Below, in pieces: positions 2,780 through 48,784 of a stretch of DNA of 64,000 bases. This DNA is from Calorimonas adulescens. GTDB taxonomy: Bacteria > Bacillota > Thermoanaerobacteria > Thermoanaerobacterales > UBA4877. A model generated the notes under the pieces. It was given only the letters and a program-made list of their open reading frames with translations, searched no databases and was not told the DNA's origin. The stretch spans positions 1-64,000 of the forward strand of contig NZ_VTPS01000004.1 of the NCBI RefSeq assembly GCF_008274215.1, read 5' to 3'. The translations under genes and the position numbers were made by a program. Position 1 is the first letter of the stretch, and each line of letters begins with the position of its first letter.

Positions 2780-2804
2780 ATCTTAACAAATAATATATCA
2801 AATG

Positions 2805-3012
2805 CGGTGAAGGGGAATAGTATAAACCTGTCGGGCATACAGAGAGCTGGCTGTTGGCTGAGATGCCGGCTGCCTATGGTTTTGAACCCACCCTGGAGCA
2901 GGAAGCGATGAGCTTTCCCGGATATCCGTTATATATTTAAGTGGGCTTTTGCCAATAAGGGTGGTACCGCGGAACCTTCCGTCCCTGTGAGGGGTTGGAG
3001 GGTTCTTTTTTT
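2805..3012 (+). ncRNA. T-box riboswitch leader, proline-type
   Basis: The leader has the T-box core AAGGGTGGTACCGCGG at 2957-2972. Its TGGT (2962-2965) would pair with an ACCA acceptor end, matching the A discriminator of bacterial tRNA-Pro. A terminator follows, pairing about 2972-2980 with 2996-3004 around an inner CCCT/AGGG stem and ending in a run of T (3004-3012). Candidate proline specifier triplets lie in the segment 2884-2893, where CCC at 2887-2889 follows a GAA. Uncharged tRNA-Pro should favour the antiterminator and raise expression of the two downstream ProRS-related genes. The specifier choice is inference; the T-box itself is clear. Confidence 0.9.
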
Positions 3013-3030: not shown

Positions 3031-4473
3031 ATGGAGGAGAAAAATCAGTATTTAAAAGAGATTACCCCAATGGATGAGGATTTTTCTCAATGGTATATTG
3101 ATACCATATTGAAGGCAGAACTGGCTGATTATTCTACAGTAAGGGGTTGTATTGTCTTCAGACCATATGGCTATGCTATATGGGAAAACATGCAGCAGCT
3201 TTTAGACAGACGCTTTAAAGAAACAGGGCATAAGAATGCATATTTTCCACTGTTCATCCCCGAATCTCTCCTTCAAAAGGAAGCAGAGCATGTGGAAGGG
3301 TTTGCGCCTGAGGTGGCATGGGTTACCCATGGGGGCAGTGATGAATTGGTGGAGAGGCTTGCCGTAAGGCCGACGTCGGAAACTATAATATGCAGCATGT
3401 ATTCAAAGTGGATAAAGTCGTGGAGGGACCTACCAGTCCTGATAAATCAGTGGGCAAATGTAGTCAGATGGGAAAAGAGTACCAGACCGTTTTTAAGGAC
3501 ATCAGAATTTCTATGGCAGGAGGGGCATACAGCCCACAGGACAGAAGAAGAGGCCGAGGAAGAGACACTGAGGATGCTTGAGGTTTACAGGGACTTTGTG
3601 GAGACTGAGCTGGCTATACCTGTGATAAAGGGTAGGAAAACTGAGAATGAAAAGTTTGCTGGGGCATTGAGGACATATACCATTGAGGCTCTTATGAAGG
3701 ACGGTAAGGCACTTCAGGCCGGCACATCCCATAACCTTGGGCAGCACTTTGCAAAGGTGTTTGATATACAATATTTAGACACAGATGGACAGCTAAAGTA
3801 TGTTTGGCAGACATCATGGGGTGTTTCAACGAGGCTCATTGGGGCACTGATCATGGTCCACGGGGATAACAAAGGTCTTAAAATACCGCCGCGGATAGCC
3901 CCTGTACAGGCAATAATAATACCTATACCTGGACAGGAAAGTGAAAAGGTGTTTGAAAAGGCTAAGGAACTATCTGCGGGGCTTAATAGCAGATTCCGTG
4001 TGGAAGTGGACTTTAATGATGAAAAGACCCCAGGATGGAAATTCAGTGAATACGAGATGAAAGGTGTGCCTCTAAGGATTGAGATTGGTCCAAGGGATGT
4101 AAAGAATGACCAGGTGGTCTTAGTTAGAAGGGATACCGGTGAAAAGATGGTTATATCCCAGGATGCTCTGGATGTGAAAATTGGAGAGGTACTTGAGGAC
4201 ATACAGAGGAATATGTTCACTCAGGCAAGGGCTTTTGTGGAGAAAAATACGAGAGAAGTTCATAGTTTTGATGAGTTTAAAGAGACAATAGAAAATAAAA
4301 AGGGTTTTGTAAAGGCAAATTGGTGCGGGAGTACTGAATGTGAGCTTGCGATAAAAGATGAGACCATGGCCACCATAAGGTGTATACCATTTGAAGGTAG
4401 TGAGCCTGATGGTGGGTGTGTGCACTGTGGCAATAGGGCTACCAAAAAGGTAATTTTTGCAAGGTCATATTGA
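3031..4473 (+). CDS. proS: Prolyl-tRNA synthetase, archaeal/eukaryal-type (ProS type 3)
   Basis: A 480-residue class II aminoacyl-tRNA synthetase that joins proline to tRNA-Pro in the cytoplasm. The protein has the compact layout of the archaeal/eukaryal-like branch: catalytic core with RPTSET (motif 2 region), TRPFLRTSEFLWQEGHTAH and the GTSHNLGQ/W-G-x-STR (motif 3) region. An anticodon-binding domain and a C-terminal zinc-like domain with paired cysteines follow, ending in the typical Ala-Arg-Ser-Tyr. The INS editing domain of bacterial ProRS is absent, as usual in this branch. The start at 3031 follows AAGGAGG; an upstream in-frame ATG lies inside the terminator stem and is rejected. The stop overlaps or abuts the next gene, which encodes a second ProRS-related protein. 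Confidence 0.96.
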   Translation: MEEKNQYLKEITPMDEDFSQWYIDTILKAELADYSTVRGCIVFRPYGYAIWENMQQLLDRRFKETGHKNAYFPLFIPESLLQKEAEHVEGFAPEVAWVTHGGSDELVERLAVRPTSETIICSMYSKWIKSWRDLPVLINQWANVVRWEKSTRPFLRTSEFLWQEGHTAHRTEEEAEEETLRMLEVYRDFVETELAIPVIKGRKTENEKFAGALRTYTIEALMKDGKALQAGTSHNLGQHFAKVFDIQYLDTDGQLKYVWQTSWGVSTRLIGALIMVHGDNKGLKIPPRIAPVQAIIIPIPGQESEKVFEKAKELSAGLNSRFRVEVDFNDEKTPGWKFSEYEMKGVPLRIEIGPRDVKNDQVVLVRRDTGEKMVISQDALDVKIGEVLEDIQRNMFTQARAFVEKNTREVHSFDEFKETIENKKGFVKANWCGSTECELAIKDETMATIRCIPFEGSEPDGGCVHCGNRATKKVIFARSY

Positions 4474-4475
4474 TT

Positions 4476-5894
4476 ATGTATATGAACATGTCAGAGATAG
4501 TACCAATGCCTCTTAAGGATGTTTCTAAAAGCCTGGGTGATGATACAGTCAGGCTCATGGTAAGGGCCGGCCTTGTGAGGAAGGTCAGTGCTGACTCTCT
4601 TTTGTATATGCCCTTGAGTATCAAAGTGATTAGAAAGATTATCAATCGGATACTGAAATACTACTGTAGTGCACATGAAGTAATGCATGGCGGCCTTGAT
4701 GAGAAGAGGTCCATCTCGTTTTTTAAGGTTTTAAAAAACGAGATGGACCTGTATCAGATTGCATTTTATTCCCTTTGCGGCGATGAGCTGACTGTATATT
4801 TTAAGGAAGAAAATTCAGGGGTGTATTTACCTGAATTTATTCGAGAGTATGTCCAAAAGGTTGAAAATAGTGCAGTTTATGTTTCCACGAATGAGACGGG
4901 CCATATGAGATTTCTCAGTTGTCCTGAATGTGGCAGACTTTATGACCCTCACAATATAGAGATTAGTATGGAAGCAGGCATACCTGATTCTGCAACTGAC
5001 ATGATGGAGATATATACTCCGGGTGCTACTACTATAGATAAGCTCTGTAAGTGTTTGGATATTATACCTGAAATGACCGTTAAGACCATGATATATGAGA
5101 CAGAGAGGCAAAAGGAAAAGTATTATTATGCAGTAATGGTAAGGGGTGACAGGACGATATCAGAAGAAAAATTGAAAAAGGCTCTGGAGGCAGACAGGGT
5201 TGGCCTGGCCGATGAATCCGTGGTGAAGTCTATAACAGGCTCACCACCGGGGTTTTGTGGGCCTGTGGGCATAAATGTGCCGATAATTGCGGACCTTGAG
5301 ATAAGCCATATGGATAAAATGGTTGCTGGTGCCAATAAGCTTGACACCCATATTGTAGGTTGTACACCGGGGAGGGATTTCCAGGTTGAGAGGTACTTTG
5401 ACCTGAGATGTGGTACAGAAGGAGATAAATGCCCTGTCTGCAGTTGTGGGTTAAGGACTGTCAAGGGGTATGTAGTCATGCAGAAAGACGAGCCTTATGA
5501 GGGTGTGTGCAGCTTTACCTATCATCTGGGACGCATCCTGCAGAGCATTGTGAAAAATGGAATGGATGAATATGGTATCAGGTGGCCCAGGGGATTGGCC
5601 CCATTTGATGTGGCGATAGAGGTAACCTCGCCAGGGAATAAATTTCTTGTGGATGAGGCAAACAGCATCAAGAGGTTACTTGAAAGAGATTTTGATGTTT
5701 TGTATGATGATAGAGACATGGGGCTTAGGGCACGGCTGGTAGATATAGACCTTCTTGGCATTCCAAAGACTGTAATAGTCACTGATAAGACCAATGAAAT
5801 AGGCAGGTATGAACTGAGGTATAGAAGAGGAGAGTCAAAGTTTGTTGAGAGGGATAGGCTTTTAGAAATACTGAATAGTCGTGGGCTTCAATGA
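4476..5894 (+). CDS. ProRS paralogue with intact INS editing domain and degenerate catalytic core
   Basis: A 472-residue relative of bacterial-type prolyl-tRNA synthetase. Residues about 5-60 match the ProRS N-terminus (L-x-R-A-G-x-x-R-K and the PLxxKVIRKI helix). The expected GPTHEE, RPR and motif 2 region is missing, replaced by about 100 unrelated residues. The INS editing domain (about 180-305) is complete: VKTMIY with K203, the loop GSPPGFCGPVG at 255-265 and H292, equivalent by eye to the lysine and histidine important for Ala-tRNA(Pro) hydrolysis. Motif 3, normally GCYGIGVSR, reads FTYHLGRIL. The anticodon-binding end is intact through YDDRD. It cannot plausibly make prolyl-adenylate; trans-editing of tRNA-Pro mischarged by the upstream editing-less ProS is the natural inference. 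Start choice (TTG 4470, ATG 4476, 4482 or 4488) is uncertain. Confidence 0.85.
   Translation: MYMNMSEIVPMPLKDVSKSLGDDTVRLMVRAGLVRKVSADSLLYMPLSIKVIRKIINRILKYYCSAHEVMHGGLDEKRSISFFKVLKNEMDLYQIAFYSLCGDELTVYFKEENSGVYLPEFIREYVQKVENSAVYVSTNETGHMRFLSCPECGRLYDPHNIEISMEAGIPDSATDMMEIYTPGATTIDKLCKCLDIIPEMTVKTMIYETERQKEKYYYAVMVRGDRTISEEKLKKALEADRVGLADESVVKSITGSPPGFCGPVGINVPIIADLEISHMDKMVAGANKLDTHIVGCTPGRDFQVERYFDLRCGTEGDKCPVCSCGLRTVKGYVVMQKDEPYEGVCSFTYHLGRILQSIVKNGMDEYGIRWPRGLAPFDVAIEVTSPGNKFLVDEANSIKRLLERDFDVLYDDRDMGLRARLVDIDLLGIPKTVIVTDKTNEIGRYELRYRRGESKFVERDRLLEILNSRGLQ
4707..4750 (+). repeat. Perfect 20-bp inverted repeat inside the ProRS paralogue
   Basis: Bases 4707-4726 and 4731-4750 are exact reverse complements separated by GGTT. 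The arms encode residues about 78-92, exactly where the catalytic core stops resembling ProRS. The RNA would form a very stable hairpin with a U-run in one arm. Confidence 0.95.
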
Positions 5895-15283: not shown

Positions 15284-15450
15284 TGTATGTGTAATTGAGC
15301 TAATCTGCTGCCGCAAAACTGATGTAATTGTAGATGCATTGTGGTGAAGTATATGGATATATAACGATTACAAAATGTACGGTTATACTTTTAATGTTAT
15401 GTATAATACACAAACGACAGAAATCTCAGCAGAATTTATGGGGTGGTCTT

Positions 15451-16662
15451 ATGAAACCGGTAATAATTGTCCCTGGTCTTTACGCTTCCATACCAAATCC
15501 GCTTGCGAAAAATGGATACAGTTTAGGTTTCAGTGAGAGGTTTTATGGACCATTGATCGATGGGCTTACCTCAATGGGTTATGTCATGGACAAAGATCTT
15601 TTTGTCGCCTGTTACCCATGGTGGGAAAATATAAGGTTTATCTCTTCAAAATTTCTTGTGCCTATGATTGATACAGCAAAAAATGCATGTAAGTGTGATG
15701 ATGTTATCCTTATATGCCACAGCATGGGTGGGCTGGTTGCCAGGGACTATATACAGGATAATGGCTATAGAAATGATGTGGATAAACTTATAATGCTTGG
15801 CACTCCTAATGCTGGTTCTGCCAATGCATACTATGCATGGGAGGGTGGGGACCTGGCACCGACACCTGACTTTGACCCGTTAAATATATTTTATAAGGCT
15901 TTTGTGTGGATGATATCAAGGCAGCATCTTTTACCACATCCTAAGGATGTGATAAGAAATCATATAAAGTCAATTAAAGAACTTATGCCTGTAAGGGAAT
16001 ATGGTAACTATATTTTTACCTATAAAAATGGTGAGATAGATTTTATCCCTATAAGGGAAATGAAAGAAAAAAACGACTATCTTGCGGAATTAAACAAAAG
16101 ATTTGATATCCTTGAGGAAAGGTGCAGGCTTTATCTTTTTGGGGGAACGGGTCACTATACCAATGAGTATATACAGGTATCATCAAAGAAGGATAAGTGC
16201 TGGGAGGATGGTAAGCCTGAGGGGGTGGTCAGGAATTTGGAAGGAGATGGTACAGTCCTTTTAAAGAGTTTGAGGGTAAAGAGCAATGCCATAGAGGTTA
16301 AGAGCCTTCATACGGACCTTATGGGAAAGGCGCTGGAACAGATTTCTAAGATTCTAAATATCAACTATAAGGGACACTTTGAGACGGAAAAGATAGATAA
16401 TTATCTCAGCATTATTGTCCCTAAGGGGGTTGACCTGTATGAAGATGTTGAGGATTTAAAATTTAGTAAGGTTACAATATATGACAGATTCGACTGGTAT
16501 CTGATGTTTAATGTGAAAAAAAGGGATTACAGATTCAGGATAAGGGAAAATCTACCTGTATCAGATATTTTTATTGATACAATGAAGAATGGTGTTAATG
16601 TGTATAAAGAATATAGAAGGACTACATCGGAATTTGTAATAAAGGGTGAGGATATAAATTGA
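15451..16662 (+). CDS. Lipase-like alpha/beta hydrolase
   Basis: A 403-residue alpha/beta-hydrolase. It opens with the oxyanion-hole type PVIIVPGLYAS, has the nucleophile elbow CHSMGG with S91, and offers D266 (GDGTV) and H287 (SLHTDLM) as the rest of a catalytic triad. The layout resembles lecithin:cholesterol acyltransferase-like or PGAP1-like lipases. No signal peptide is seen, so it is probably cytosolic. The last 70 residues are an extra beta-rich part. The start follows GGGGTGG; upstream in-frame ATG 15334 has no site. Its stop overlaps the TTG start of ispF by four bases, so the two are co-translated. The substrate is unknown. Confidence 0.8.
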   Translation: MKPVIIVPGLYASIPNPLAKNGYSLGFSERFYGPLIDGLTSMGYVMDKDLFVACYPWWENIRFISSKFLVPMIDTAKNACKCDDVILICHSMGGLVARDYIQDNGYRNDVDKLIMLGTPNAGSANAYYAWEGGDLAPTPDFDPLNIFYKAFVWMISRQHLLPHPKDVIRNHIKSIKELMPVREYGNYIFTYKNGEIDFIPIREMKEKNDYLAELNKRFDILEERCRLYLFGGTGHYTNEYIQVSSKKDKCWEDGKPEGVVRNLEGDGTVLLKSLRVKSNAIEVKSLHTDLMGKALEQISKILNINYKGHFETEKIDNYLSIIVPKGVDLYEDVEDLKFSKVTIYDRFDWYLMFNVKKRDYRFRIRENLPVSDIFIDTMKNGVNVYKEYRRTTSEFVIKGEDIN

Positions 16663-17167: not shown

Positions 17168-17243
17168 TAATAGCAGGAAATTCAAGACATATGTAGAAAT
17201 TATATAGATGTAAGACAACAGATATCTTATGGAGGTGTTAGTT

Positions 17244-20200
17244 ATGGGTTTTAAAAAAATTTTTAGTTTTGCCCTTATATTTGTTCTTGTTGTCTCCATG
17301 GTGACCTTTGGAGAGGTATCAGGTGTTGCGGCTCAGAAAAATGTTAATTTGACTATTCTGGCCACATCAGATATTCACGGACACATATACCCATGGGACT
17401 ATGACCAGGCAAAACCGGCGGATTATGGCCTGGCCAAGGTTTACACCATTGTTAAAAGCGTAAGGGCAGAAAACCCCAATACCATCCTCGTGGATAACGG
17501 CGACCTTATACAGGGAACACCGCTTGTCTCCTATTACAACTCCCAGATACTGTCCGGTAATAAAGACTTTACATATCCCATGATTGATGTAATGAATATG
17601 ATGGGTTATGACTCAATGACCCTGGGCAACCATGAATTCAATTTTGGCCTTGACGTACTCAACAAGGTAATATCCGATGCAAAATTCCCTGTTCTGTCGG
17701 CAAATATTTACAAAGAGGACGGGACAAACTTTGTAAAGCCGTACACCATAAAAGATGTTGGTGGTGTTAAGGTCGGTATACTTGGGCTTACCACAAAGAC
17801 CATACCAGAGTGGGAAAATCCAGATAACTATAAGGGCCTCAAGTTTAATGACATAGTAGAGGAAGGCAAAAAGTGGGCCAAGGTGCTTAAGGATGATGAA
17901 AAGGTGGATTTTATACTGGCAGTTGTGCACTCGGGCATAGAGTCACCGACAGATATCATCCCTGAGAACCAGGTCAAGGCCCTTGCAGAGAATGTACCGG
18001 AAATTAATGCCATAGTAGCAGGGCACACACACTCAAACATACCAAATCAGGTAATAAACGGAGTTACAATAACTGAACCAGGCAGATGGGGTGAGTATTT
18101 ATCCAGGATAGACGTGGAACTCACCAGTGATGGTGCAGGGTATAGGATAGCAAATATAACAAGCAATACCATTTCTACAAAGGATGTTGAACCGGCACAG
18201 GAGGTCCTGGATCTGGCAAAACCATACCATAACCAGACCTTGAACTACATTAATACTAAGATAGGCACAGCGACCGATGATTTTGCGCCTGTGGATGAAA
18301 TAAAAGGAATTCCTACGGCGCAGATTAAGGATACGGCTTTGATAGATCTTGTGCAGAAAGTACAGATGTATTACGGTAAAGCGGATGTGTCCATGGCAGC
18401 CATGTTTAACCCCAATGGCATAATCAAGAAGGGTGATATTACCATCAGGGATATTTCCGGCCTGTATATATATGAAAACTATTTATATACCATTGAGGTT
18501 ACAGGTAGGCAATTGAAGGACCTTATGGAATGGTCAGCTAAATATTACAACCAGTACAGGCCCGGCGATGTAACTATAGGTTTTAACAAGGATGTACCAG
18601 GATATAACTATGACATGTTTGAGGGTGTAGACTATAAGATTGATATATCGAAACCTACAGGAGAGAGAATTGTGGACTTGAAGTTCCATGGTAAGCCCGT
18701 GACTGATGATATGGTGTTAAAGCTGGCTATAAACAACTACAGGTTTAACGGCGGCGGTGGGTTTATGAAGGCGGCCGGAATAACTAACCCAAAGGTGCTT
18801 TTTGATTCTCAGAAAGAGATGGGCGACAATGGCCAGATAAGGAACCTTATTATAAGCTATATTAAAGAAAAGGGCACCATATCTCCTGAAGTAAACAATA
18901 ACTGGTCCATAACTGGGGCTAACCTTGATAGCTGGGCCAGGCCATATGTCATTGACCTTGTTAACATGGGCATTATGGATACAGGGAAAAATAATTCTGT
19001 AGCTATCAATGTAAATGATGAGGTCACAAGGGGCGAATTTATAAAAACTCTGGTCAGGGCTATGGGATATCAGCTTCCTGCCGTAGAGTCTTCCAGCTTT
19101 ACAGATGTGGATAAGGAACTCGCACCTTATGTAGAAGCTGCACTTAAAAATGGGGTCACCAATGGGATAAGCGATACCCTGTTTGGCACAGATATGAAGA
19201 TAACCAGGGAACAGGCTTTCTCCATGCTCATGAAAGCCCTGAATCTTAAAGATAATGGTGAAAACCTCGGGTCCTTTAAGGATGCAGACAAGGTAAGCGA
19301 GTGGGCTAAGGGATATATCAGCTCTGCAATTGGACTTGGTATAGTAAAGGGTTCGGATGGAAACTTAAATCCAGTTTCTAACATTACCCGTGGCGAAATG
19401 GCTTCCATGATCGACAACTTCATAAAGAATATAAAACCTGTAACACTGTTATCAATTAATGACTTTCATGGACAGCTAAAGGAATCGGGGAGTAATATAG
19501 GAATAGCCAAAATGGCTGGATATTTAAAGTCTAAAAAGGCAACAAATCCTAACAGGACTCTTGTACTCAGTGCTGGAGACAACTATCAAGGCAGCGCTGA
19601 GTCAAACCTGCTGTACGGTGAACCGGTAAACCAGGCTATGAATATGATAGGGTTTGACGCTTCAGCCATTGGAAACCATGAATTTGACTGGGGTATTGAC
19701 AAGCTTAAAGGGTGGATTAATACAGCAAAGTTCCCATTCCTGGCAGCAAACCTGTATGACAGGTCTACTGGCAAACCGGTAGATTGGGCAAAGCCATACA
19801 CTATTGTTGAAAGGGATGGGATAAAGATAGGCATAATTGGCCTTTCTACTCCTGAGACTGCATATAAGACCAAACCTGACATAGTGGCACCCTATGAGTT
19901 TAAAGACCCTATCGAGGTTACAAGGGAGTATACGAAGATATTAAAAGATAATGGAGCAGATATAATTGTGGTGCTGTCCCACCTTGGGACTGACCAGGAT
20001 AAGGATGGTAACATAACAGGTGAGGGGGCAGAACTGGCGAAGGTATCTGATGTGGATGCCATCATAACAGGCCATACCCATAAGACTGTAGCAGGAAAGA
20101 TAAATGGTATACCTGTTGTCCAGGCTTACTACAACGGACGTTCGGTTGGCGAGATAACTCTATACTATTATGTTCCATTACAGAAGGTAGTTGCATCCAC

Positions 20201-20972
20201 TGTAAAGGTAAATGGTAATCTCTCAAAAGAAACCATTGCCCCTGATAAGGATGTGGCGGCAATGCTTGATGACTACCTGAAAGATGTTGCACCACTGCTG
20301 AATGAGGTCATAGGTAAGACTGATGTAGACCTGGAGCACGATAAGGGACACCTTTCTCTGCTGGGTGAATGGACGGCGGATATTATGAGGGAAGCATCCG
20401 GAGCTCAGATAGCATTCCAGAATGGTGGCGGGCTCAGGACCAGCATACCAAAAGGTGATATCACTGTTGGTAAAATGTACGAGGTAATGCCTTTTGATAA
20501 CACCCTCTATACCTTTGATATGACGGGGGCACAGATCAAAGAGGTACTGGAACATGGCATAATGAACACCAACGTTGGATGGGTTCAGTTTGCCGGACTT
20601 ATAGTAAAGTATGACTCTACAAAACCGGAGGGTGAAAGGGTAGTAAGCATGACCCTGTCTGACGGTACTCCGGTGGAGATGGATAAGGTTTATAAAGTTG
20701 TCACCAATGATTTTATGGCTACGGGTGGAGACAATTATATGACATTCACTAAGGCACAGAACGGGAAAGACACAGGTATACCTGTAAGGGAAGCCATGAT
20801 AAAGGCTATAAGGGACCTCACATCGGCAGGTAAGACATTATCACCTGAATATGAAGATAGACTGATAGATGTCTCAAAGACTGTAAGCTTTAGAACTCCG
20901 GTTTTTACCGGAGTTTTTTTTTATGGGGAAAAACCTATTGCATTAATGAGATATATCTGGTATAATTCATAG
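17244..20972 (+). CDS. Surface-anchored double nucleotidase/phosphodiesterase with internal SLH triplet (YfkN-like)
   Basis: A large exported protein, 1242 residues as read. A signal peptide covers residues 1-30. Module 1 (about 35-560) is CpdB-like: SDIHGHIYP, GNHEF near 128, GHTHSNIP near 258, then a 5'-nucleotidase C-terminal domain. Three SLH motifs (about 562-725) follow. Module 2 (about 732-1195) is UshA-like: NDFHGQ, GNHEFDWG near 810, GHTHKT near 943, FQNGGGLR near 1058. It should hydrolyse extracellular cyclic and mononucleotides while bound to cell-wall polymer. SLH repeats in the middle, not at an end, are unusual. The last 25 or so codons cross a terminator and the next promoter, so the real end is probably near 20884-20893, with a frameshift. 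The start is set by GGAGGTG. Confidence 0.9.
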   Translation: MGFKKIFSFALIFVLVVSMVTFGEVSGVAAQKNVNLTILATSDIHGHIYPWDYDQAKPADYGLAKVYTIVKSVRAENPNTILVDNGDLIQGTPLVSYYNSQILSGNKDFTYPMIDVMNMMGYDSMTLGNHEFNFGLDVLNKVISDAKFPVLSANIYKEDGTNFVKPYTIKDVGGVKVGILGLTTKTIPEWENPDNYKGLKFNDIVEEGKKWAKVLKDDEKVDFILAVVHSGIESPTDIIPENQVKALAENVPEINAIVAGHTHSNIPNQVINGVTITEPGRWGEYLSRIDVELTSDGAGYRIANITSNTISTKDVEPAQEVLDLAKPYHNQTLNYINTKIGTATDDFAPVDEIKGIPTAQIKDTALIDLVQKVQMYYGKADVSMAAMFNPNGIIKKGDITIRDISGLYIYENYLYTIEVTGRQLKDLMEWSAKYYNQYRPGDVTIGFNKDVPGYNYDMFEGVDYKIDISKPTGERIVDLKFHGKPVTDDMVLKLAINNYRFNGGGGFMKAAGITNPKVLFDSQKEMGDNGQIRNLIISYIKEKGTISPEVNNNWSITGANLDSWARPYVIDLVNMGIMDTGKNNSVAINVNDEVTRGEFIKTLVRAMGYQLPAVESSSFTDVDKELAPYVEAALKNGVTNGISDTLFGTDMKITREQAFSMLMKALNLKDNGENLGSFKDADKVSEWAKGYISSAIGLGIVKGSDGNLNPVSNITRGEMASMIDNFIKNIKPVTLLSINDFHGQLKESGSNIGIAKMAGYLKSKKATNPNRTLVLSAGDNYQGSAESNLLYGEPVNQAMNMIGFDASAIGNHEFDWGIDKLKGWINTAKFPFLAANLYDRSTGKPVDWAKPYTIVERDGIKIGIIGLSTPETAYKTKPDIVAPYEFKDPIEVTREYTKILKDNGADIIVVLSHLGTDQDKDGNITGEGAELAKVSDVDAIITGHTHKTVAGKINGIPVVQAYYNGRSVGEITLYYYVPLQKVVASTVKVNGNLSKETIAPDKDVAAMLDDYLKDVAPLLNEVIGKTDVDLEHDKGHLSLLGEWTADIMREASGAQIAFQNGGGLRTSIPKGDITVGKMYEVMPFDNTLYTFDMTGAQIKEVLEHGIMNTNVGWVQFAGLIVKYDSTKPEGERVVSMTLSDGTPVEMDKVYKVVTNDFMATGGDNYMTFTKAQNGKDTGIPVREAMIKAIRDLTSAGKTLSPEYEDRLIDVSKTVSFRTPVFTGVFFYGEKPIALMRYIWYNS
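20894..20922 (+). terminator. Terminator of the nucleotidase gene
   Basis: An 8-bp perfect stem (20894-20901 with 20908-20915) and nine T residues (20914-20922) form a textbook terminator, although the nucleotidase frame reads through it. Confidence 0.88.
20938..20966 (+). promoter_or_regulatory. Promoter of the cysE-cysS T-box transcript
   Basis: TTGCAT (20938-20943), 17 bases and TATAAT (20961-20966) with an extended TGG. It overlaps the annotated tail of the nucleotidase ORF. Confidence 0.7.
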
Positions 20973-20994
20973 TAAATTAGTATGAATTAAATGC

Positions 20995-21218
20995 AATGAA
21001 GAGGTTGAGTAGGTACATCGAGCCCCTAAGAGAGGGACTGTCACCGGCTGAGAGCAGGCCCGGGCCACTGGATGTATTCGAATTGCACCTTTGAGCATCA
21101 CCCCAGAACATGAGTATGGTGTGGCGTCAGCTACGTTATAGCTTCGAGTGAAGGCGTCAGTCTGCCTTAACAAGAGTGGAACCGCGGTAAACCCGTCTCT
21201 TAGGAGATGGGAATTTTT
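20995..21218 (+). ncRNA. T-box riboswitch leader, cysteine-type
   Basis: The leader has the specifier TGC at 21084-21086 (GAATTGCACC context) and the T-box AACAAGAGTGGAACCGCGG around 21169-21187. Its TGGA would pair with UCCA, matching the U discriminator of tRNA-Cys. A terminator follows (21192-21199 with 21204-21211 and T run). Uncharged tRNA-Cys should permit read-through into cysE and cysS. Confidence 0.95.
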
Positions 21219-26674: not shown

Positions 26675-26769
26675 TTTAGTCAAATATAGATTTGGAGGCT
26701 AATTAAGAAAATTGGCCGTTTTATATATAATTTTAAAATAATTATGTTATACATAGAGGAGGAAAAAAG

Positions 26770-27987
26770 ATGGCAAAAGCGCATTATGAAAGAACGAAGC
26801 CCCACGTAAATATAGGTACAATAGGCCATGTAGACCATGGCAAGACCACACTTACCTCAGCGATAACGATGGCGTTAGCAGTTGAGGGCAAAGCCCAGGC
26901 GAAAGCATATGACCAGATAGACAATGCGCCTGAAGAGAAAGCGAGAGGAATCACAATAAACACAGCCCATGTAGAGTATGAGACAGAGAAGAGGCACTAT
27001 GCCCATGTTGACTGTCCGGGACATGCTGACTATGTAAAGAACATGATAACAGGTGCTGCCCAGATGGATGGTGCCATACTGGTTGTATCAGCAGCAGACG
27101 GGCCGATGCCGCAGACGAGAGAGCATATACTCTTAGCGAGGCAGGTAGGGGTACCATATATAGTAGTATTTTTAAACAAAGCTGACATGGTAGACGATCC
27201 AGAGCTCATAGAGCTGGTAGAGATGGAAGTCAGGGACCTATTAAATGAATATGAATTTCCCGGAGACGAGATACCGATAGTGGTAGGGTCAGCCTATGAA
27301 GCCATGGAAGCCCTTATAAAGAACCCCAACATAAAAAGGGGAGAGAATCAGTGGGTAGACAAGATATGGGAATTAATGGATGCAGTAGACGAATATATAC
27401 CCACACCACAGAGGGATATAGATAAGCCATTCCTGATGCCAATAGAAGACGTATTCACCATCACAGGCAGAGGCACAGTGGTAACAGGGAGAGTAGAGAG
27501 GGGCAAGATCAAAGTAGGAGACGAAATAGAGATAGTAGGATTAATGAATGAGAGCAAGAAGACAGTAGTAACAGGATTAGAGATGTTCAGGAAGACCTTG
27601 GACGAAGCTCTGGCAGGGGACAACATAGGAGCGCTGTTAAGAGGCATACAGAGGACAGAGGTAGAGAGAGGGCAGGTATTAGCAAAACCAGGCAGCATAC
27701 ACCCACACACAAAATTTATAGGTCAGGTATATGTACTCACCAAAGAAGAGGGTGGGAGGCACACACCATTTTTCAACGGATACAGGCCACAGTTTTACTT
27801 TAGGACAACAGATGTCACTGGAGAGATAAAGTTACCAGAGGGTGTAGAAATGGTAATGCCTGGGGACAACATCAACATGGAAGTGACATTGATAACACCA
27901 ATAGCGATTGAAGAAGGATTAAGGTTTGCCATAAGAGAAGGTGGCAGAACAGTAGGTGCCGGTGTTGTCGGAAGTATAATTGAATAA
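26770..27987 (+). CDS. tuf: Elongation factor Tu, copy 1
   Basis: A 405-residue GTPase that brings aminoacyl-tRNA to the ribosome. G1 GHVDHGKTT (about residues 19-27), [16 protein letters not shown] and the GRGTVVTGR start of domain 2 are intact. The DNA is identical to the copy at 47567-48784, including the AGGAGGAAAAAAG ribosome site; identity ends abruptly on both sides. This copy lies alone after tRNA-Thr and before a terminator. Confidence 0.99.
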
Positions 27988-45485: not shown

Positions 45486-47555
45486 GTGCCTAGGCAGTTT
45501 CCGATAGAAGCAGTACGAAATATTGGTATAATGGCTCATATAGATGCAGGTAAGACCACCACGACAGAGAGGATCCTGTACTACACAGGTAAGCTTCACA
45601 AAATGGGAGAGGTGCACGAGGGGACGGCAACGATGGACTGGATGGTACAGGAACAGGAACGTGGCATTACTATAACATCTGCAGCTACTACCTGTTTTTG
45701 GAGAAATACGAGAATAAATATAATTGATACGCCAGGGCACGTGGACTTTACAGTTGAGGTAGAACGTTCACTGAGGGTATTAGATGGTGCTGTAGCTGTC
45801 TTCAGTGCCAAAGAAGGTGTTGAGCCACAATCTGAAACCGTATGGAGACAGGCTGATAAATACCATGTACCAAGAATAGCATATGTAAACAAGATGGATA
45901 TAATAGGCGCAGATTATTATAATGTTATAGAGATGATAAGAAACAGACTGAACGCAAACCCTGTTGCAATCAATATACCTATTGGCAAGGAAGACACATT
46001 CAATGCTATCATAGACCTGGTGTCAATGAAAGCATATTACTATGCTGATGATCTCGGAACTAAAATTGAAGAAAAAGAAATACCACAGGATATGATAGAC
46101 ATTGCTGAGGAGTACAGAACAAAGCTGATTGAAACAGCGGTTGAATTAGATGATGAACTTATGATGAAATATCTTGAAGGCGAAGAACTTTCAGAAGAAG
46201 AAATAAAGGCAGTAATCAGAAAAGGTACTGTTGAAAATAAGCTTGTACCGGTTTTATGTGGTACGTCTTACAAAAACAAGGGGATACAGCTCCTTCTAAA
46301 TGCCATTGTCGACTATCTGCCTTCACCAGTAGATCTGCCACCGGTAAGAGGAATTGATCCGGTGACAGGCGAAGAAGTAGAAAGGCATCCGTCTGACGAT
46401 GAGCCGTTTTCTGCTATTGCTTTTAAAATAATGGCTGACCCATACGTAGGGAAGTTGACATTTGCCCGTGTTTATTCAGGGACATTAAAAAATGGATCTT
46501 ATGTATATAATGCGACTAAAGGTAAAAGAGAAAGAGTTGGACGAGTGCTTTTGATGCATGCGAACCATAGAGAAGATATTGATATGGCTTATGCTGGAGA
46601 TATTATAGCAATAGTAGGGCTTAAGGATACTGTTACGGGCGATACCTTATGCGATGAGCTTAAACCTATTGTACTGGAATCGATGGAATTCCCAGAACCG
46701 GTTATCCACGTGGCAATAGAGCCTAAATCTAAAGACAGCCAGGATAGGCTTGGTGTATCACTGCAAAAATTATCTGAGGAAGATCCGACCTTCAGAACAT
46801 ATACAGATCAGGATACTGGTCAGACGATTATATCAGGTATGGGTGAACTGCATCTTGAAATTATAGTTGACAGGTTACAAAGAGAATTTCATGTAGAGTG
46901 CAATGTGGGTAAGCCACAAGTTGCATACAAGGAAACAATAAAGAAATCAGTAAAGAGTGAGGGTAAATTTATAAGGCAGTCTGGTGGTAGAGGTCAGTAT
47001 GGTCATGTATGGATTGAGCTTCAACCACTGGAAAGAGGAGAAAATTATGAGTTCGTGAACAACATTGTCGGTGGTGTCATACCAAAGGAGTATATACCAT
47101 CTGTTGATGCTGGCATTCAGGAGGCTATGCAGAGCGGTGTGCTCGGTGGTTATCCTGTAGTTGATGTAAGAGCGATATTATTTGATGGGTCATACCATGA
47201 GGTTGACTCCTCGGATATGGCGTTTAAGATTGCAGCGTCAATGGCTTTTAAAGAAGGCATGAAAAAAGCTGACCCTGTGTTATTGGAACCGATTATGAAG
47301 GTTGAAGTTGTCGTGCCTGAAGAATTTATGGGTGATGTCATTGGTGATATTAACTCTAGGAGAGGCAAGATAGAAGGAATGGAGATGCGTGCTGGCGCTC
47401 AGATAATAAGAGCGTATGTACCGCTTGCAGAGATGTTTGGGTATTCCACGGACCTTAGGTCAAGAACACAGGGACGAGGCACTTATTCTATGCACTTCAG
47501 TCATTATGATGAGGTGCCCAAAAATATAGCTGAAACGATATTAAAAGATAAGTAG
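45486..47555 (+). CDS. fusA: Elongation factor G
   Basis: A 689-residue translocase GTPase. P-loop [12 protein letters not shown] (about residues 17-28), GITITSAA switch I, DTPGHVDF and NKMD are intact, followed by domains II-V. It starts with GTG behind GGAAGGAGG. tuf copy 2 follows after 11 bases. Confidence 0.99.
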
Positions 47556-47566
47556 GAGGAAAAAAG

Positions 47567-48784
47567 ATGGCAAAAGCGCATTATGAAAGAACGAAGCCCC
47601 ACGTAAATATAGGTACAATAGGCCATGTAGACCATGGCAAGACCACACTTACCTCAGCGATAACGATGGCGTTAGCAGTTGAGGGCAAAGCCCAGGCGAA
47701 AGCATATGACCAGATAGACAATGCGCCTGAAGAGAAAGCGAGAGGAATCACAATAAACACAGCCCATGTAGAGTATGAGACAGAGAAGAGGCACTATGCC
47801 CATGTTGACTGTCCGGGACATGCTGACTATGTAAAGAACATGATAACAGGTGCTGCCCAGATGGATGGTGCCATACTGGTTGTATCAGCAGCAGACGGGC
47901 CGATGCCGCAGACGAGAGAGCATATACTCTTAGCGAGGCAGGTAGGGGTACCATATATAGTAGTATTTTTAAACAAAGCTGACATGGTAGACGATCCAGA
48001 GCTCATAGAGCTGGTAGAGATGGAAGTCAGGGACCTATTAAATGAATATGAATTTCCCGGAGACGAGATACCGATAGTGGTAGGGTCAGCCTATGAAGCC
48101 ATGGAAGCCCTTATAAAGAACCCCAACATAAAAAGGGGAGAGAATCAGTGGGTAGACAAGATATGGGAATTAATGGATGCAGTAGACGAATATATACCCA
48201 CACCACAGAGGGATATAGATAAGCCATTCCTGATGCCAATAGAAGACGTATTCACCATCACAGGCAGAGGCACAGTGGTAACAGGGAGAGTAGAGAGGGG
48301 CAAGATCAAAGTAGGAGACGAAATAGAGATAGTAGGATTAATGAATGAGAGCAAGAAGACAGTAGTAACAGGATTAGAGATGTTCAGGAAGACCTTGGAC
48401 GAAGCTCTGGCAGGGGACAACATAGGAGCGCTGTTAAGAGGCATACAGAGGACAGAGGTAGAGAGAGGGCAGGTATTAGCAAAACCAGGCAGCATACACC
48501 CACACACAAAATTTATAGGTCAGGTATATGTACTCACCAAAGAAGAGGGTGGGAGGCACACACCATTTTTCAACGGATACAGGCCACAGTTTTACTTTAG
48601 GACAACAGATGTCACTGGAGAGATAAAGTTACCAGAGGGTGTAGAAATGGTAATGCCTGGGGACAACATCAACATGGAAGTGACATTGATAACACCAATA
48701 GCGATTGAAGAAGGATTAAGGTTTGCCATAAGAGAAGGTGGCAGAACAGTAGGTGCCGGTGTTGTCGGAAGTATAATTGAATAA
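47567..48784 (+). CDS. tuf: Elongation factor Tu, copy 2
   Basis: The 405-residue product is the same as that of the first copy. My reading finds no base difference over the whole gene or over the 13 bases before it. Identity ends at once outside these limits: G versus T before AGGAGG, and G versus T after the TAA. This copy is in the classic str position, between fusA and rpsJ. Confidence 0.99.

Follow-up and report, generated by a model that had tools for sequence, protein, structure and literature searches.

Near the start of the window (the whole stretch of DNA analyzed here, 64,000 nucleotides), a T-box leader precedes two genes, one for a prolyl-tRNA synthetase (ProRS) of the archaeal/eukaryal type (ProRS-I) and one for a protein homologous to bacterial-type ProRSs (ProRS-II), which we call the relic. 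The features of the locus are as follows.

2798 to 2989, forward strand: T-box leader (Rfam RF00230, 115.2 bits, E 5e-27)
3031 to 4473, forward strand: proS-I, archaeal/eukaryal-type ProRS of 480 aa without an INS domain (TIGR00408)
4476 to 5894, forward strand: relic, a displaced bacterial-type ProRS apparently reduced to an editing protein of 472 aa (hhalign; catalytic motifs absent in 8/8 relics)
4476 to 4991, forward strand: N-terminal helices and eroded catalytic-core remnant of the relic, residues 1 to 172, its fastest-evolving part
4992 to 5480, forward strand: INS (tRNA_edit) domain of the relic, residues 173 to 335 (PF04073, E 2e-23)
5481 to 5891, forward strand: motif 3 remnant (motif lost), then the anticodon-binding domain of the relic, residues 336 to 472 (HGTP_anticodon, E 4e-7)

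The original prediction placed both genes under a common T-box, and the leader indeed belongs to RF00230: in addition to its family score of 115 bits, it carries a proline specifier, CCC, at 2887-2889 (context GAA-CCC-ACC) and a UGGU bulge at 2962-2965 that is complementary to the ACCA of tRNA(Pro). The tRNA(Pro) genes fetched from three genomes are of the bacterial type (C1:G72, A73), with an A73-CCA end and UGG or CGG anticodons. The proS-I product scored 630.9 bits against TIGR00408, the family I ProRS model (cutoff, 437), and contains tRNA-synt_2b, HGTP_anticodon, and ProRS-C_1 domains with PF04073 absent, as expected of the INS-less archaeal/eukaryal-type enzyme that had been proposed. 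In the window's genome (G000), no other gene was found that encodes a ProRS with all of its catalytic parts, and a search of that genome retrieved no bacterial-type ProRS besides the relic. The frame of the relic runs intact for 472 codons from an ATG at 4476, 2 bp past the proS-I stop, to a TGA at 5892-5894; an alternative ATG at 4482 better matches the start of most homologues.

A short stretch that looks coding but contains an in-frame stop (2575-2770), and that may be a gene remnant, lies between a DUF1638 gene (1696-2376) and the T-box. Elsewhere in the window, a second T-box (20987-21203), with a TGC (cysteine) specifier, is found upstream of cysE-cysS, and the printed N-terminal stretches of two EF-Tu genes (26737-27987 and 47552-48784) are identical.

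Motif loss and retention in the relic

Residues 3 to 463 of the relic aligned by hhalign with residues 1 to 556 of ordinary ProRS-II (E 1.4e-97), which establishes common descent, and all PDB matches to E 0.01 were ProRS chains, with no ProXp-ala entry among them. The earlier description of the protein as full-length thus stands for homology along its length but has to be qualified as to size: the relic is ∼100 residues shorter than ProRS, and the whole loss falls within the catalytic core. The relic is a member of the INS/YbaK superfamily (PF04073, 83.2 bits; cutoff, 25.5) and misses the NCBIfam cutoffs for ProRS equivalogs (202.9 versus 558 bits for PRK09194; 154.1 versus 306.7 for TIGR00409). 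A Pfam search of the protein found no class II core and no tRNA-synt_2b match; the HGTP_anticodon match covers residues 390 to 467. An AlphaFold2 model was set aside, as it was built from a two-sequence alignment and had a pLDDT of 35.

Eight relics were compared by motif with 51 ordinary bacterial ProRSs. The catalytic positions that are invariant in the 51 ordinary enzymes (GPTHEE, RDExRPRFGxxRxREFxMKD, and GxYGIGxxR) were deleted or replaced in 8/8 relics, so that class II motifs 1 to 3 and the TxE loop, by which ProRS-II is recognized, are absent throughout; in the window, motifs 1 and 2 and the GPTHEE loop are lost from residues 1 to 172. The loss of these landmarks had been predicted from the window's sequence, and the residues named at the same time as retained proved exact: Lys203, the catalytic lysine (in VKTMIY; codon 5082-5084), the GSPPGFCGPVG loop (residues 255 to 265), and His292 (codon 5349-5351). 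Lys203 aligns with Lys279 of ProRS, and the lysine is present in all relics. Other INS positions kept in the relics are TP 181-182, G259, G262-P263, D273, G285, N287, and D301. The anticodon-binding end is likewise intact, with the positions DDR..D..L.G.P kept in 8/8 relics (in the window, DDR at 411-413 and D423..LLGxP). In the relics of the window's family (f1), the anticodon-domain motif KFxDAD reads RLxDID or RLxDMD; anticodon recognition may therefore differ in this family.

The distribution of constraint is inverted relative to ordinary ProRSs. In 1,218 of 1,218 ordinary pairs, the core was more conserved than INS (mean gap, 0.20 to 0.25), whereas in nine of the ten relic pairs INS was the better-conserved part, the remaining pair being a tie. 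Between the relics of G000 and G001, for example, identity is 75% in INS, 47% in the core, and 52% in the anticodon domain. By a hand count, INS holds ∼32 of the 51 columns that are invariant among the eight relics; 9 lie on its N-terminal side and 10 on its C-terminal side. For the closest relic pair (G073/G279), dN/dS was 0.146 (95% interval, 0.104 to 0.202). This ratio and the inverted constraint indicate that the frame has been maintained while selection shifted from synthesis to the editing pocket, which bears out the earlier view that a frame open for more than 470 codons reflects selection. A functionless, decaying gene would be consistent with the long branches on which the relics lie and with the broken or lost copies in three species of one genus (see below). 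Such decay is highly improbable given open frames of 468 to 501 codons in eight genomes at identities down to ∼30%, a dN/dS whose upper bound is 0.20, and invariant columns concentrated in INS. For the intact copies, a pseudogene reading was rejected on dN/dS and the pattern of constraint.

Distribution and history of the gene pair

Relics were surveyed by 638 whole-genome searches covering several hundred genomes of the phylum, some of which were searched repeatedly. Intact relics were found in eight genomes of three families: f1 (G000 and G001), f41 (G073, G279, G431, G182, and G114), and f138 (G386). A family I ProRS directly precedes the relic in 8/8 genomes, and T-boxes, some scoring below the Rfam gathering threshold, lie upstream in 8/8; the association of T-box, ProRS-I, and relic is common to the three families, so the search for the pair in related genomes that had been suggested was positive. 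Scans of viral contigs and GTDB genome contigs retrieved no further relic.

Many broken frames had been named as evidence against the original prediction, and this evidence exists in part: the relic is broken or missing in 3/11 genomes examined at this slot across the three relic-bearing families, all in genus g109 of f41. There it is interrupted in G149, frameshifted in G256, and deleted in G429, and is thus dispensable in this genus. The interrupting element in G149 encodes a TnpB-like protein (IS605/IS200 type; L072 8600-9817 and L135 1-480) and also breaks the assembly. An apparent 300-aa short form in this genome was considered as an INS plus anticodon-domain mini-protein and rejected, because the TnpB-type insertion splits the gene at two contig ends. 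The frameshifted remains in G256 (L133 7276-7765) are followed by an insertion-sequence-like stretch at the contig end.

Elsewhere in the phylum, the ordinary ProRS gene of many families stands in the order rseP-ispG-proS-GT-mgtC-polC. The corresponding order is rseP-ispG-[ProRS-I]-[relic]-GT-mgtC-polC in f41 and f138 and rseP-ispG-[ProRS-I]-GT-mgtC-polC in f92 and f116. Because the relic of f41 and f138 occupies the ancestral proS slot, it is the displaced resident enzyme and not a fresh duplicate. The earlier term "paralogue" is therefore better replaced by "displaced former ProRS"; the window's genome has no other bacterial-type ProRS.

In the taxonomic order to which the window belongs, the ordinary ProRS gene follows ispF in a ctsR-mcsA-mcsB-clpC-radA-ispD-ispF-proS-gltX-cysE-cysS cluster. 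In G000 and G001, a 5'-nucleotidase/S-layer protein is encoded in this ispF-side slot and the T-box/ProRS-I/relic unit is located before ctsR. The window's 5'-nucleotidase, which has S-layer homology domains, is encoded at 17214-20972, between ispF and cysE, the site of the ordinary proS gene in relatives of the same taxonomic order. An LCAT/lipase-like alpha/beta hydrolase is encoded between ispD and ispF (15343-16659), and similar frames of 410 to 428 aa occur at the same place in relatives of the order (L152, L154, and L155).

On the simplest reading, f1 would have acquired the ProRS-I/relic pair as a unit and then lost its own ProRS. When separate origins of the f1 and f41 relics were considered, all relics fell on one side of a branch of the tree (98/98), with long branches involved; an alternative that unites the f1 relics with their own order withstood the AU test (p 0.17), and the ProRS-I tree does not settle the place of f1. 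A single origin of the relic would agree with these trees, long branches affecting them. We tentatively propose, at somewhat below even odds for the scenario as a whole, that horizontal transfer brought in a synthetase of another type, which displaced the resident one within its operon; that the displaced enzyme, its domains eroding, became a dedicated trans-editing enzyme that reads the anticodon; and that T-box, ProRS, and editor were later transferred together, as a self-contained cassette, to a different class, whose native ProRS was lost.

The relic as a putative trans-editing factor

Archaeal-type ProRSs misactivate alanine. The relic is probably a trans-editing factor for Ala-tRNA(Pro), a former bacterial ProRS surviving as a separate proofreading subunit. 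In this proposal, an archaeal-type ProRS without an editing domain, once acquired, would have taken over aminoacylation from the bacterial enzyme in certain anaerobes. ProRS-I would at times charge tRNA(Pro) with alanine; the product would dissociate and bind to the relic, which would recognize G35/G36 of tRNA(Pro) through its anticodon domain. With the CCA end placed in the INS pocket, formed by Lys203, His292, and the loop at 255-265, alanine would be hydrolyzed, while Pro-tRNA(Pro) and Ala-tRNA(Ala) would be spared. Uncharged tRNA(Pro) would co-induce proS-I and the relic through the T-box. The deacylase activity, specificity for alanine, and hand-over of tRNA in this scheme are what we infer; homology, motif loss, retention of the pocket and of the anticodon domain, selection on INS, the operon, and the history of the slot can be read from the sequences. 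By itself, the INS domain of Escherichia coli ProRS does not select tRNA(Pro) and needs the anticodon domain to do so; ProXp-ala, in contrast, recognizes the acceptor stem (PMC3973320). An editor derived from a cis-acting INS would therefore need an anticodon domain, as is seen in the relic.

The relic is the only INS-superfamily (PF04073) protein in G000, G073, G279, G431, G182, and G386. In G001 and G114 there is an additional ProXp-x/TTHA1699-like protein (in G114 by similarity to that of G001), of a kind with a different activity (PMC11295145). Relic-less sister genomes with ProRS-I in f116 and f92 often carry ProXp-ala-type proteins; that of G302 has 5vxb as its best phmmer match (E 1e-27), and closely similar sequences occur in G366, G404, and G208. 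An INS-family protein was absent from 8/34 sampled ProRS-I genomes. Editing is thus not obligatory with ProRS-I, and the association of ProRS-I with INS proteins is a tendency, not a rule.

Two further explanations were weighed. The main substrate of trans-editing could be tRNA(Pro) that carries a different wrong amino acid (cysteine, alpha-aminobutyric acid, or azetidine-2-carboxylic acid), since INS relatives vary in specificity (YbaK, Cys; ProXp-x, Abu) and G000 has no INS-family protein besides the relic. We consider this unlikely: the pocket matches that of the alanine-specific cis-INS, among others at the positions of Lys279, the conserved His, and the GxxGP loop, and a separate ProXp-x-like protein stands beside the relic in G001 and G114. 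The relic could also be mainly a nonenzymatic partner or regulator of ProRS-I, a HisZ-like tRNA-binding or stabilizing subunit in which INS conservation is secondary, as would be suggested by the conserved adjacency and 2-bp coupling of the genes and by the N-terminal helices and anticodon domain that the relic still has. This is very unlikely, as the strongest constraint falls on INS and the catalytic lysine rather than on putative interface regions and as sister ProRS-I enzymes work without a relic. At the level of sequence, several lines support the trans-editing function originally predicted. Homology to ProRS is full-length, 8/8 relics have lost the catalytic motifs and kept INS and the anticodon domain, and constraint is inverted. 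The relic is also conserved in a T-box operon whose other gene encodes a ProRS without INS, and in sister families ProXp-ala takes its place.

Among known systems, ProRS-II (TIGR00409, PRK09194; PDB entry 2j3l) resembles the relic over its full length, in domain order, INS pocket, and anticodon domain, and shares its chromosomal slot in f41 and f138. In contrast to ProRS-II, the relic lacks all class II aminoacylation motifs and ∼100 core residues and always stands beside a foreign ProRS. The closest analogue in architecture and logic is ThrRS-ed, the crenarchaeal Ser-tRNA(Thr) hydrolase (PRK14938), which likewise combines editing and anticodon domains, has no synthesis site, and accompanies an editing-less synthetase (PMC11295145). 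ThrRS-ed differs in amino acid, in domain of life, and in fold, its editing domain being the DTD-like one of archaeal ThrRS and that of the relic PF04073; unlike ThrRS-ed, the relic keeps part of the core, and its partner ProRS belongs to a type acquired horizontally. The free-standing Ala-tRNA(Pro) deacylase ProXp-ala (PDB entry 5vxb) shares the INS superfamily and the proposed reaction and replaces the relic in sister genomes, but it is a single-domain acceptor-stem reader, whereas the relic is derived from a cis-INS enzyme and has 472 aa with an anticodon domain. In the Anabaena ThrRS T1/T2 pair (PMC4787780), a synthetase subunit trans-edits for an editing-poor second synthetase on the same principle, although T1 is still an active ThrRS when zinc loaded and the loss of the site in the relic is permanent. 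Streptomyces ProRSx (PMC9437257) likewise comes from an additional bacterial ProRS gene that took on a different role, but unlike the relic it is an active synthetase, with a special tRNA as its substrate; in a review table of duplicated synthetases, it is the sole ProRS paralogue with a new function. The original prediction knew of no described example, and our full-text literature searches found neither a description of this kind of protein nor an INS-family counterpart of ThrRS-ed.

All free-standing INS proteins have been described as single-domain proteins (PMC11295145). The relic would depart from this rule as a trans-editor that retains the anticodon reader of a synthetase, and as such it would be a natural separation of ProRS editing from aminoacylation. 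This separation would allow a test of how reading of the anticodon enables editing at a site ∼70 Å away. More broadly, the relic suggests that proofreading can survive the replacement of a synthetase, with the old enzyme being kept as an editor instead of ProXp-ala being recruited.
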